DNA of 32,271 nt, taken from the NCBI GenBank assembly GCA_016872195.1, contig VHAT01000022.1, forward strand, positions 1-32,271, read 5' to 3'. Positions 1,063-28,605 of this stretch are shown here, piece after piece (position 1 is the stretch's first letter; each line of letters begins with the position of its first letter). The notes under the pieces are model-generated. The model was not told where the DNA came from and ran no database searches. It saw only the letters and a program-made list of their open reading frames with translations. The position numbers were made by a program, and so were the translations under genes. Source of the stretch: Sphingomonadales bacterium. GTDB lineage: Bacteria > Bacteroidota > Bacteroidia > Chitinophagales > Chitinophagaceae.

Positions 1063-4000
1063 TTATTTGTATTTGGTCTCTATTTCATTTAGTACCAGCA
1101 GTAGTCGTTCGTTGATGGGCTCCTCAGCACCTTGAAACTGTGGGTAGGCTTTTGGTTTTTTTGCGCTGATGTACTTATAGTATTTTTCTTGTTGCTCCAG
1201 ATCAGTTTTGATAGCCGTTCCAACCTTAGCGGCAAGTTCTTTTATTCCGGCCTTATAGCAGGCCTCCAGATAGATCAGTGCGGTCTGGTTATGGCTATTG
1301 TAACGGCTTACCATCGCGTAGGGTAGAGCAGTAGCTGGGATCTCTTTTTCTATCTTTTCGATCAGGGCCTTGGCCTCCGTCATTTTACCGGCATCGGCTA
1401 AATTACCTGCAGCCTCGGCATAGATCTCTCTGATGTTGAGCATGTGTCGACGATTTTCCTCATCAAAGTACATTCCGTTTATGGAGGCTCCGCCAAAACG
1501 ATACTTCTCCATCAGGTTCGTGTAGATCACCGCCAAATTATTATCCCGAATAGGCGTGCCTCCCAGTCCGTTCGAGCGCATGGCCTGATCGGTTACCCAG
1601 TTCATTTGCGAATAGGCGGGTTTTACGGGAACCAATCGGTAGGCCAGTCCCTCTTTGCGCAAGAAAGGTCCAAACCCAAGTTCACCGTACGGAGAGGTAA
1701 AGTAGATGGGACGTTTCCATTTGTTGGAAGCGATGATATTTAAAATGATCAATTCGTTCTTCATTAGCCCTCTTTCCGGTAGCGCAAATCCAAAATCGGT
1801 AAAGATGCTGTCTTCGGGGTTGGCTGTTCCATTTTGCAATACCGTAGCGCGGTCCACAGGCACTACTACCTTGTTGATCGGTAGCATATTGAGAGCCTCT
1901 CCTCTGCTATTGTCCATCCGCGAGGGATCATCGCTACCGACATAGTTTTTCATAACATCATAGAGGTCATAATAGGCCTCTTGATCGATGCCTTCAATGG
2001 GAGTATAGGAGACAAAGTTCCTGGTGTTACCTTGAATTTTCTCAGGACCCCATAGTACATCGAGTGAATCAGCATCGTTGATCTTGTATCGCAATTGGTT
2101 TATGTACCAATCGATGCCGAGTAAACTATTGTTTATAACCCGCACATCGGTACGAACGCCCTCTACCTCTTGTGCATACCAGAGCGGATAGGTATCGTTA
2201 TCTCCAAATGAGAATATGATGGCATTGGGCGCACAGCTTTCTAGGTAATTGCGCGCCAGGTCAGGTGCGGTCGTTTTTTGACTGCGGTCATGATCGTCCC
2301 AGTTTTGGTTGGCCATTAGGGCGGGTACGGCCAAGCAACAAACCGTCGCCAGGCTAACCAGCAGGTTGTACTTCTTTCCTCCATCTGATATAAGACCAAG
2401 TAATAAACTAAGGGCTCCGCCTATGAAAGCCGTCATACCGGCTGCCGCTAAGGCATTAATGACCGGACCCCAGCCATCGCTGGGAAATGAGCTCATAAAA
2501 GTTATCCAAAATGCTAAGAAGGCAGATAGTCCGATGACAGCCGTTTGGCGTACTACGTCAATTCGCTGCGCAGCGGCCTGCACAAAAGCGATCAGGGCAA
2601 GACCGATCCAAATAGCAAATGCATAGAAAGACCCTACATAGGCATAATCTCGCTCACGAGGCTGATTACCGGGTTGATTTAGATAAAGCACGATAGCAAT
2701 CCCGGTAAAGAAGAACAAAAGGAAACTAACGATCCAGTCTTTTGGTCGTTGAACCGCTTGAAAAACGCAGCCAATCACACCCAATAAGAAGGGAAGTAAA
2801 AAGTAGTAATTAGTCCCGGCATTGGGGCGCATACTGCTGGGTAACTTCGACTGATCGCCCAGCCTTGCATTATCCAGAAAACTGATCCCGGTAACCCAGT
2901 TGCCGTCTCGTACATTACCCATTCCCTGGATATCATTTTGTTTGCCGGCAAAATTCCACATAAAGTAGCGCCAATACATCCAGCTCATTTGATAAGAGAA
3001 GAACCAGTTAATATTGTCTGACAAACGAGGGGCATTGTAGCTTCCATCCTCTGGATTCCGAAGGCCCAACCACTCGGCGTAGAATTGGGCATGATATTGG
3101 TCGTCGCTTGAATCCCAGACGCGCGGAAAGAGTTGTTTGACCCGTGAGCTATAATTATATTCTTTTGATCTTCCTATGGGAATATATCGCTTATCGCCCT
3201 TTACATACTTCATTTCGCTTTTGATAAAGTATGCATCATCTATTAATGCGGCATAGACGCTATCCTTAATTTGTTCAAAGGTTCTTCCGGCGCGTAGCTC
3301 TTCAGATTGATGAATGTTAGAGGCCTCTGTTTGGCTCTTTGCTTTTATTTTATCTATGACGCCTTCTTCTTGAATAGCCAGGTCTTTAGAGGGGTCTGCT
3401 GCAAAATGAGGACCGTATACTAACGGGGCGCTGCCATATTGCTCGCGACTCAAATAATAGACCAGGTTAATAGGATTATCGACATTGTTCATGTCGATGC
3501 CAGGATTGGCATTCGATCTGATCAGTGTCGTAAAGTACAAGCAATAACCCAGCATGATAAAGGCGTAGGACCATAGTGAAAGTTTGAGAATGCGTAGTCC
3601 ACTGGGTTTGAAAAAAGCAATCAACAGCCCTGCAAAGATCAACAGTAAGAGGATGCCTCCAATTTTGAGTCCATCGCCTGGCACCACGATCGAGGGAGTA
3701 AGCAGCAAAAACAAAAAGACCAAGGACCATGCGGCAAACAGGGGCCTGTTAAATTGGGACTCTTTGAACTGTAATCCTACTAAGATTAGCGCAGCCAGGG
3801 CTACAAAGTAAAAAGCAAAGCCATAGAAAAAAGGTTGGCCTAGTTGATTGACGAAAAAGATGTCAAATTCTCCGGCTGCTTTCATGGAGTATTGAATGAC
3901 TCCCACTTGCACAAGGCCGGTTATGGCACAGCCGATCAGAAAGGCCAGGATGGCTCCTGCTACGCTGAACTTGTAACGACGGAAATAGTAGATCATTACG

Positions 4001-6559: not shown

Positions 6560-6621
6560 AACCGTTCTTGTAAGAGGAGGAAAAAGAGAGCCCGGTTTGT
6601 AACAAATTGGAATATGGGGCG

Positions 6622-7566
6622 CTATGCCTGCGGGCGCAAGGCGATGCTCATTTTTTGCATTACCTGTTTTTCTGCCATGTCTTTTGCCAGGCAAAGCATG
6701 TTCATAAAGGCCTTTTCGCCAGAAATGCCATGACCGATAATCACAGGTTTAGAAACACCCAGTACGGGGGTACCGCCGTAGTTTTCAAAGTTAAAGCGAC
6801 CAAAGTACGGGGTATCAATTTGCTGATGAGTTGCGATATCAAAGAGGGATTCAGCCATTTTCAGCACTATATTTCCGGTATATCCATCGCAGACCATCAC
6901 ATTGGCCTTGCCAGTCAAGATATCTCTCCCTTCTACATTACCAATAAAGTGGATCAGCTTATTTTCTTTGAGAAGAGGATAGGTGGCCTGCGTTAGGGCA
7001 TTGCCCTTGGTCTCTTCTTCTCCTACGTTTATGAGTCCTACCGTTGGATTTTCGATGCCTAGCATTACGTTGGCATAGACAGATCCCATAATGGCAAACT
7101 GGTTCAGGTGTTCCGGCTTACAGTCGGCATTGAGTCCTACGTCGAGTAGTAAGGCCGTGCCACCATCGATCTTGGGGATAATGGTAGAGATGGTGGGGCG
7201 AATAACCCCTTCGAGCGGTTTGATACTAAAATGTGTTCCCACCAACATGGCGCCCGTGTTACCGGCACTCATAAAGGCAGCTATCTTGCCTTGTGATAAC
7301 CAGCCAAAACCTATGGCAATCGATGATTGTGGTTTTTCTTTAAGCGCGCGGGTAGGATGTTCGTGCATGCCGATTTGATCGGGGGCATGGACTATCGTAA
7401 TATGTTCTAAGGAGACTTGGTCTTGTTGCAGCAGGGGCAATAAGACCGATTCAGCACCAAATAAACAAAGAGGGATCAGCGGGAACCGTTCTTGAAATGC
7501 TTTTACGCCTTTGACGGCCTGAGCGGGGGCATAGTCCCCGCCCATCATATCAATTCCGATCAACAT
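6622..7566 (-). CDS. plsX: phosphate acyltransferase PlsX
   Basis: The 314-residue protein opens MLIGIDMMGGDYAPAQAVKG, the hallmark PlsX N-terminus, and continues with AFMSAGNTGAMLVG, RPTISTIIPKIDGG, LLLDVGLNADCKPEHLNQFA, GLINVGEEETKGN and VMVCDGYTGNIVLKM, all in family order. PlsX converts acyl-ACP to acyl-phosphate, the donor for PlsY in phosphatidic acid synthesis; it is a soluble or peripheral membrane enzyme. It starts three bases after the rpmF stop and is the third gene of the DUF177-rpmF-plsX operon, a widely conserved order. fabH, often next in other phyla, is absent: a convergent tRNA-Lys follows. The length is normal. Confidence 0.97.
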   Translation of the reverse strand: MLIGIDMMGGDYAPAQAVKGVKAFQERFPLIPLCLFGAESVLLPLLQQDQVSLEHITIVHAPDQIGMHEHPTRALKEKPQSSIAIGFGWLSQGKIAAFMSAGNTGAMLVGTHFSIKPLEGVIRPTISTIIPKIDGGTALLLDVGLNADCKPEHLNQFAIMGSVYANVMLGIENPTVGLINVGEEETKGNALTQATYPLLKENKLIHFIGNVEGRDILTGKANVMVCDGYTGNIVLKMAESLFDIATHQQIDTPYFGRFNFENYGGTPVLGVSKPVIIGHGISGEKAFMNMLCLAKDMAEKQVMQKMSIALRPQA

Positions 7567-27936: not shown

Positions 27937-28010
27937 CGGGACGTAGCGCAGCCCGGTAGCGCACTTGCATGGGGTGCAAGGGGTCGCTAGTTCGAATCTA
28001 GTCGTCCCGA
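27937..28010 (+). tRNA. tRNA-Pro (anticodon GGG)
   Basis: Acceptor CGGGACG/CGTCCCG is fully paired; the D arm is GCGC/GCGC-like; anticodon stem CTTGC/GCAAG holds loop ATGGGGT (GGG); the T arm is CTAG/CTAG with TTCGAAT. The discriminator is A28010 and the next bases are CTA, so CCA is not encoded. Its 3' 46 bases plus one more are duplicated at 28521-28567. Confidence 0.96.
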
Positions 28011-28011
28011 C
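27965..28011 (+). repeat. 47-bp direct repeat, copy 1 (tRNA-Pro 3' half; attL-like)
   Basis: Identical over 47 bases to 28521-28567. It covers the anticodon stem-loop through the discriminator of tRNA-Pro, the classic target region of tyrosine integrases. Confidence 0.85.
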
Positions 28012-28019
28012 TAACAAAG

Positions 28020-28045
28020 AGCATCGAGAAATCGGTGCTTTTTTT
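28020..28045 (+). terminator. terminator after tRNA-Pro
   Basis: Stem AGCATCGA/TCGGTGCT (8 bp with a T-G pair), loop GAAA, then a run of Ts. Confidence 0.88.
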
Positions 28046-28257
28046 GTGTCTAAAAATCTATCTATTTAAGGTTTTCTGATGAAAGAAAGACGATTTAATT
28101 ATCGGGTACAGTTTTGTCAGAGAAGTTAATAAATTCATCAATTATACCCTTCCTTTTAGCATACTAGTAACGGTCTGTAAATTGTTTGGTTATAATATAT
28201 TAATTATCTAAATTCGTATGCTTTAATTCAATTTGACGAACAATTTAAACCAACACA
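28046..28257. other. AT-rich gene-free stretch inside the tRNA-Pro element
   Basis: About 210 bases with no supportable gene. It presumably holds the promoter of the 69-residue gene, but no clean TAnnTTTG box was found. No hairpin or repeat stands out. Confidence 0.4.
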
Positions 28258-28467
28258 ATGACTAAAGAAGAAATTAAAGCTCAGGTTGATCGACGTAAAG
28301 ATCAAATTTTGCAAAATAAAACGCGCATTAGCGAGCTAAAGGAATCAATGAAAAGACTTGAGCCAAAACATAGGGAGGGGACAAAAAACAACATTAAGAA
28401 CTACACAGATAAAAACGTGCAGCTTAAAAAGGAAATCGAATACTATAAATCGCAGGCAAAAAAGTAA
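28258..28467 (+). CDS. small coiled-coil protein inside the tRNA-Pro element
   Basis: 69 residues, very charged (about half K/E/D/R): MTKEEIKAQVDRRKDQILQ, then KTRISELKESMKRLEP and NVQLKKEIEYYKSQAKK. The heptad-like spacing of I/L/V suggests one or two long helices in a coiled coil. There is no signal peptide or membrane span. I do not recognise a family; charge-rich small helical proteins are frequent in mobile elements. The surrounding DNA is AT-rich and lies between the two tRNA-Pro repeats, so it is probably acquired cargo or a remnant of a larger island. A good ATG and full-length helix argue for a real gene. Confidence 0.6.
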   Translation: MTKEEIKAQVDRRKDQILQNKTRISELKESMKRLEPKHREGTKNNIKNYTDKNVQLKKEIEYYKSQAKK

Positions 28468-28520
28468 AAGATTGTATTTGTGCTTTTATCAGGCAGCTAA
28501 ATTTTAGAGAAATTCAATTG

Positions 28521-28567
28521 TTGCATGGGGTGCAAGGGGTCGCTAGTTCGAATCTAGTCGTCCCGAC
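28521..28567 (+). repeat. 47-bp direct repeat, copy 2 (displaced tRNA-Pro 3' fragment; attR-like)
   Basis: Perfect copy of 27965-28011 without any 5' half of a tRNA, so not a functional tRNA. It continues with CCA (28567-28569) directly after the discriminator, unlike copy 1. Confidence 0.85.
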
Positions 28568-28578
28568 CAACTGATCAG

Positions 28579-28605
28579 GCCCTGACAAAAGTCAGGGCTT
28601 TTTTT
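28579..28605 (+). terminator. terminator after the tRNA-Pro fragment
   Basis: A perfect 8-bp stem GCCCTGAC/GTCAGGGC with loop AAAA is followed by seven Ts. Probably the original terminator of tRNA-Pro before the insertion. Confidence 0.9.

Follow-up and report, generated by a model that had tools for sequence, protein, structure and literature searches.

The window analysed here is a whole contig of 32,271 nucleotides (VHAT01000022.1 of assembly GCA_016872195.1, our contig C22) from a 1.9-Mb, 51-contig genome of a Bacteroidota bacterium, designated G000. It contains a tRNA-Pro(GGG) gene that is followed by a second copy of its own 3' half, and a small insert with one gene lies between the two copies. 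The intact tRNA gene was located by ARAGORN at positions 27937–28011 of the forward strand, on which both repeat copies, the two hairpins and the 69-aa ORF described next also lie. Its bases 29–75 are duplicated perfectly (47/47 bp, or 50/51 with the ACTAAC/ACCAAC tail included): copy 1, on the attL side, spans 27965–28011, and copy 2, on the attR side, spans 28521–28567. The expected number of chance 47-mer pairs in 32 kb of random sequence is about 5e-20. The repeat begins in the anticodon stem, at its second base pair, and extends to the end of the tRNA. Copy 1 runs into TAAC, without a CCA, and copy 2 runs into CCA. Each copy is followed by a terminator-like hairpin, t1 (28016–28043, −14.7 kcal/mol) after copy 1 and t2 (28577–28600, −17.5 kcal/mol) after copy 2; for either hairpin, none of 200 shuffled sequences was as stable. 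The tail at 28568–28600 completes the CCA and includes t2.

The insert body between the repeats (28012–28520, 509 bp) has a GC content of 30.8%, lower than that of each of 1,271 overlapping 509-bp segments of the contig (contig mean 45.5%). Its single predicted open reading frame (ORF), called p69 below, occupies 28258–28467; the frame is open, and the 69-aa product is charged and coiled-coil-like by eye. No integrase ORF is present within the 556 bp, and a comparison of the 509-bp insert with four recombinases gave a best E value of 0.67, a test that is weak for diverged fragments. An earlier reading of these letters without database searches (the sequence-only reading) had described the perfect repeat, the CCA after copy 2 and its absence from the intact tRNA, the two terminators, and AT-rich DNA with a 69-residue gene and no integrase; all of this was borne out. 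p69 is an orphan cargo gene: it is present in one of 394 genomes of the family, namely its own, and no relatives of it were found in phage or plasmid collections or in viral contigs. Its best Pfam and PHROG matches are weak, the Pfam ones all being below cut-offs, and an NCBIfam search gave no match. The insert occurs once in its own genome.

Site-specific integration in general implies an empty site in relatives. We compared 17 tRNA-Pro loci chosen from a larger set. Eleven of them, that of G000 and those of 10 relatives from the genus, share the gene order dihydroorotase-like gene, tRNA-Pro, MFS-like gene; the two labels are what we take the flanking genes to be from their sequence. The remaining six loci (G023, G014, G030, G598, G396 and G261) have no match to the MFS-like gene and are uninformative for this comparison. 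The site is empty in eight of the 10 relatives (G029, G034, G013, G016, G006, G022, G025 and G033). In these eight a t2-like hairpin stands directly 3' of the tRNA, preceded by an encoded CCA in G029, G034, G013 and G016, and the sequence matches the flank of copy 2, not that of copy 1. In the window, 1,199 bp separate the end of the tRNA from the match to the MFS-like gene, which leaves 643 bp after subtraction of 556 bp. The corresponding spacing is 641 bp in G022, 643 in G033, 646 in G025, 653 in G013, 656 in G029 and 720 in G034; it is 102–105 bp in G006 and G016, both of which have no match to the intervening gene. From this comparison of flanks and spacing it follows that copy 2, the CCA and t2 are the original tRNA end and terminator of the host, and that the half in copy 1 (the tRNA from 27965 on), t1 and the ORF are the incoming part. 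The window holds an insertion with exact bounds.

Copy 2 carries no change in 47 bp, which bounds its divergence below 6.4% (95% bound) if it is unconstrained, and the 236 bp upstream differ by 25–27% from G034, G013 and G029. Judged by these sequence distances, the insertion is probably younger than the splits from these three relatives. An apparent insertion in a 51-contig draft could also be a chimeric join made by the assembler. Such a fault is unlikely because the repeat is only 47 bp long and lies well inside a 32-kb contig with conserved gene order in the outer flanks; the gene order of the relatives is kept 3.7 kb beyond, and the insert is single-copy in the genome. We therefore regard an assembly artefact as extremely improbable.

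The other two relatives, the sisters G003 and G011, are occupied otherwise, so that the content of the site varies between relatives: the p69 unit in G000, other DNA in the sisters and nothing in the eight. In both sisters a 22-mer of t1, the same as in the window, follows tRNA-Pro(GGG), and the MFS match lies 2,052 and 1,721 bp from the tRNA end, respectively. G003 retains a decayed tRNA half 1.9 kb downstream, immediately ahead of a t2-like hairpin and the MFS gene; it agrees at 24 of 29 bases, and 30 shuffles gave a maximum of 18. No tRNA half is recognisable downstream in G011; that its site is occupied too is suggested by its kinship to G003, by t1 and additional DNA after the tRNA, and by a t2-like hairpin ahead of the MFS gene. 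A 268-aa ORF is present in both sisters, its G003 copy having no NCBIfam match, and G011 additionally has a CBS-domain-like ORF. In a further genome, G018, a degraded 3' half lies at 1–70 of locus L040 (contig C8), and its terminator is, by eye, that of the intact tRNA-Pro(GGG) on L046 (contig C37); this pair is possibly one more insert, broken by assembly.

With two mismatches allowed, t1 occurs at four sites in three of 42 genus genomes, each directly 3' of an intact or displaced tRNA-Pro 3' end. An exact 23-mer of t1 is found in seven GTDB stretches, two of which are G003 and G011. One further stretch, from Dyadobacter, has it after tRNA-Val; by eye, it stands behind a coding gene in two Firmicutes stretches and within a coding region in two Sphingopyxis stretches. 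Because t1 is found as a terminator in other bacteria too, its presence is no proof of a single element family. On contig C21 of G000 (L002, 1501–1777; L045, 11906–14550), tRNA-Pro(TGG) is followed by a native-type terminator, a displaced copy of the tRNA 3' end (20 bp, 95%) and then t1; about 2.4 kb with three ORFs separate t1 from the gene that, by eye, directly follows this tRNA in G013. A recurring hairpin-like motif of the type AGGATCACTGAAAGTAATCCT was seen by eye about 100–200 bp downstream of tRNA-Pro(TGG) in several members of the genus (for example at L045, L052, L057 and L060). When the 33 tRNAs of G000 were checked for a downstream copy of their own 3' end (14 bp exact or 17/20, in downstream stretches whose available length ranged from 39 bp to 25.7 kb), only tRNA-Pro(GGG) of the window passed. 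More weak copies of tRNA ends may exist, because this criterion missed the 20-bp tRNA-Pro(TGG) copy.

A larger element occurs at the same tRNA. A 46-mer with at most three mismatches was found in 54 of 396 genomes sampled from the order, twice in four of them, and a 45-mer was found in 95 of the 394 family genomes, twice in five; the two samples overlap. Overall, two copies are present in six genomes: G000, G261, G323, G396, G591 and G598. G396 (locus L228), of the same family, carries a 10,868-bp element at tRNA-Pro(GGG). This element shares with the window insert the neighbour gene, the tRNA, the left boundary of the repeat (its 55-bp repeat also starts at tRNA base 29) and, by eye, a T-rich hairpin-like sequence after each tRNA half. 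It differs in having nine further ORFs of at least 100 aa besides a 406-aa tyrosine integrase (Phage_integrase and Arm-DNA-bind_2), which is encoded 114 bp from the tRNA; the two bodies were compared through the G396 integrase alone. The sequence-only reading had proposed that the incoming DNA supplied a replacement 3' half and displaced the original end, and had held that an identical arrangement in all relatives would speak against this. Its proposal stands: the type of sequence found downstream of copy 2 directly follows the tRNA in eight of the 10 comparable relatives, and an integrase-bearing element occupies the same site in G396.

As for the other genomes with two copies, G591 has them on separate contigs, and one of its tRNAs ends at a contig end. 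G323 has an 80-bp repeat over the whole tRNA, 10.0 kb apart, with SusC/SusD-like genes between by eye, and was set aside as a different event. Nine phage records match the tRNA-Pro half, and in phages CF418P1 (89%) and phiPSA1 (83%) a similar half lies less than 90 bp from an annotated integrase. No viral contig has an exact 32-mer of the tRNA half; an exact 21-mer was found in at least 120 viral stretches. Among the matches listed, 24 of 120 stretches match at least one of three integrases no more than 2.5 kb away, and in 16 of these 24 a tRNA 5' half is not recognisable. By this test the remaining 96 show no integrase match, and cases at contig edges may be misassigned.

The repeat spans the tRNA from the anticodon stem to the 3' end, which is the geometry of a tyrosine integrase acting at the anticodon loop, and we infer an enzyme of this class. 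According to the Islander paper (PMC4383910), anticodon-centred att sites are the larger class, 2,083 of 3,919 islands. An imported circular DNA could instead have recombined with the tRNA-Pro 3' end by homology, without any site-specific recombinase. The assembly of G000 has no suitable integrase, and donor DNA from relatives would match, since the 47-mer is exact in 16 of 29 related loci (L005–L033). Homology alone is at odds with a left boundary that coincides with that of the integrase-bearing G396 element and with the anticodon-centred att sites, and we consider this route unlikely.

Two of the six genomes have short units of a similar build. In G261 two tRNA-Pro halves lie 356 bp apart with an 82-aa GIY-YIG ORF between them; in G598, beside a dihydroorotase-like neighbour, two halves are separated by 1,181 bp and enclose a 255-aa ORF for which NCBIfam gave no match. 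When the inserts of G000, G003, G598 and G261 were compared with three tyrosine integrases and the serine recombinase of G000, no match was better than E 0.07. The displaced halves in G261 (L229, about 6589–6667) and G598 (L237, 316–392) are preceded by a tRNA-like 5' part in which a GC hairpin stands in place of the D arm. ARAGORN calls these halves tRNAs because of this part, which is similar in the two genera. In G261 the region 5900–7021 of L229 is a tandem of tRNA-Pro(GGG), the GIY-YIG ORF, a tRNA-like copy, a second GIY-YIG ORF, a partial tRNA match and tRNA-Pro(CGG). G486, from the same genus, has one tRNA-Pro(GGG) with no GIY-YIG match in 7 kb, and its flanks do not match those of G261. 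Another accumulation of tRNA ends was seen at 1–1912 of L041 (G026), with three successive tRNA-Pro(CGG)-like 3' fragments, the third being separated from the first two by about 1.6 kb of other DNA.

The GIY-YIG ORFs of G261 and its additional tRNA-like copies raise the idea of homing-type copying, in which a nuclease cuts within the tRNA gene and repair spreads units flanked by tRNA halves, the window unit being a derivative that has no nuclease. The window ORF is not of the GIY-YIG family, and the two GIY-YIG domains of G000 belong to open frames that are 463 and 601 aa long. Such copying is very improbable as the origin of the insert.

Two proteins with PF00589 are encoded in the G000 assembly, XerD above the cut-off and a XerC-like protein below it; both match XerD/XerC models best and are far below integron-integrase cut-offs. 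The G396 integrase has a relative at E 1e-10 in one of the 42 genus genomes, G024; this copy is split and has stops. G000 has one serine recombinase, at another tRNA. This large serine recombinase of 509 aa (Resolvase, Recombinase and Zn_ribbon_recom) lies near the start of contig C42 (L087, 928–2457, forward strand), and its ORF enters the 3' end of a tRNA-Asn gene (2419–2497, reverse strand) in antisense; the arrangement resembles that of a serine-integrase element integrated in a tRNA gene. The Islander paper (2014) states that only tyrosine recombinases were known to target tRNA and tmRNA genes (PMC4383910), and the paper on Dehalococcoides describes serine recombinases at ssrA (PMC3146451).

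Taken together, site-specific integration at tRNA-Pro(GGG) is very probably the origin of the one-gene insert without an integrase. The donor would have been a circle carrying a tRNA-Pro 3' half, t1 and the 69-aa gene. A tyrosine integrase specific for tRNA-Pro, either supplied in trans by another element or later lost, would have joined this circle to the host tRNA-Pro(GGG) gene through conservative site-specific recombination within the anticodon stem-loop. The incoming 3' half would rebuild the tRNA and bring its own terminator t1, and the original 3' half with its CCA and terminator would be displaced 556 bp downstream.

Site-specific integration of this kind has two variants, both of them named in the sequence-only reading. 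The insert may have been small at arrival, with the integrase acting in trans, or an integrase-bearing element may have entered tRNA-Pro and lost nearly everything between its ends. The choice is close to even and tips slightly to small arrival, because one-gene units without a recognisable integrase recur; the internal-deletion variant, whose probability is part of that given to site-specific integration above, has somewhat less than an even chance. The full-size element at the same site in G396 speaks for deletion, the small genome (1.9 Mb) makes it plausible, and a diverged integrase fragment could have escaped the search used. On the other side, both ends and an open ORF survive and no integrase fragment was recognised, although the G396 integrase lies 114 bp from the tRNA; the short units in G261 and G598 likewise have one main ORF and no integrase. 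The absence of differences in the 47 bp of copy 2 also limits the time available for large deletions.

Several points weigh against integration of a small unit as set out above. An internal deletion of a larger element would give an identical picture. The own genome, related tRNA-Pro loci, the 394 family genomes and phage and plasmid collections yielded neither a donor nor a circular form of the insert, nor another copy of it. No integrase of the right kind was found in the own assembly, and apart from the broken G024 copy none like that of G396 in the genus, so trans action has no visible agent today. The intact G396 integrase, used as a control, was found by two phage integrases at E values of 0.005 and 0.04 only, so a short diverged integrase fragment would escape the search. 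The units in G261 and G598 are candidate inserts, read from their repeats. Finally, t1 was considered as a private mark of the element, a role weakened by its occurrences outside tRNA-Pro.

Comparable insertions have been described, and the following likenesses and differences refer to the cited papers. The window has an intact tRNA with a displaced 3' fragment downstream in the same orientation, as Islander looks for, and resembles Islander islands in the regenerated tRNA and in the right order and orientation of the fragment. Islander also requires an integrase gene (PMC4383910); the interval has none and therefore is not an island by that definition, and its 556 bp are far below the Islander size peaks of 13.6 and 39.9 kbp. 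A direct repeat of a tRNA segment marks additive flexible-genomic-island cassettes at tRNA genes of 'Ca. Actinomarinales' (PMC7771536). In 'Ca. Methylopumilus', a streamlined freshwater bacterium, repeats of the final 20 nt of tRNA-Lys stand ahead of islands of 330 bp to 42 kb with 1–63 coding sequences (PMC10872708). There as here, related genomes differ in what they carry at the site. The present case differs in the phylum, the tRNA (tRNA-Pro), the 47-bp repeat, the mapped empty site and the integrase-bearing relative at the same site. Repeated additions are not seen at the tRNA-Pro of the window, which has one insert and one extra copy of the tRNA half. The Dehalococcoides ssrA islands also have repeats of the 3' end of an RNA gene, 28 repeats for 16 islands with an integration module; those are tandem islands with 20-bp repeats, at a tmRNA gene and with serine recombinases (PMC3146451). 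Other integrated elements, with examples of about 9–23 kb, likewise leave part of a tRNA (attR) next to the intact gene (PMC9897764). Open-access word searches for integrase-less tRNA islets, GIY-YIG/tRNA units and a Bacteroidota tRNA-Pro element gave nothing beyond the cited papers, an absence that means little.

Small insertions with tRNA-end repeats are thus already known. What is added here is an unusually complete set of states of one site: empty, small, full-size and decayed. The window provides a base-exact example, close to the minimum at 556 bp and one gene, of DNA that has no integrase of its own and uses a tRNA gene to land in. It makes testable the question of whether small genes travel on the integrases of other elements; island finders that require an integrase would miss such units by design. 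More tentatively, and with a probability well below even, tRNA-Pro(GGG) in this Bacteroidota family may be an acceptor for a standing pool of single-gene integrase-less cassettes (tRNA 3' half, terminator, gene) that are spread by the integrases of co-resident full-size elements, an integron-like gene capture with a tRNA as the site. If small units are indeed mobilised by the integrases of other elements, the class would be more interesting than the single case.
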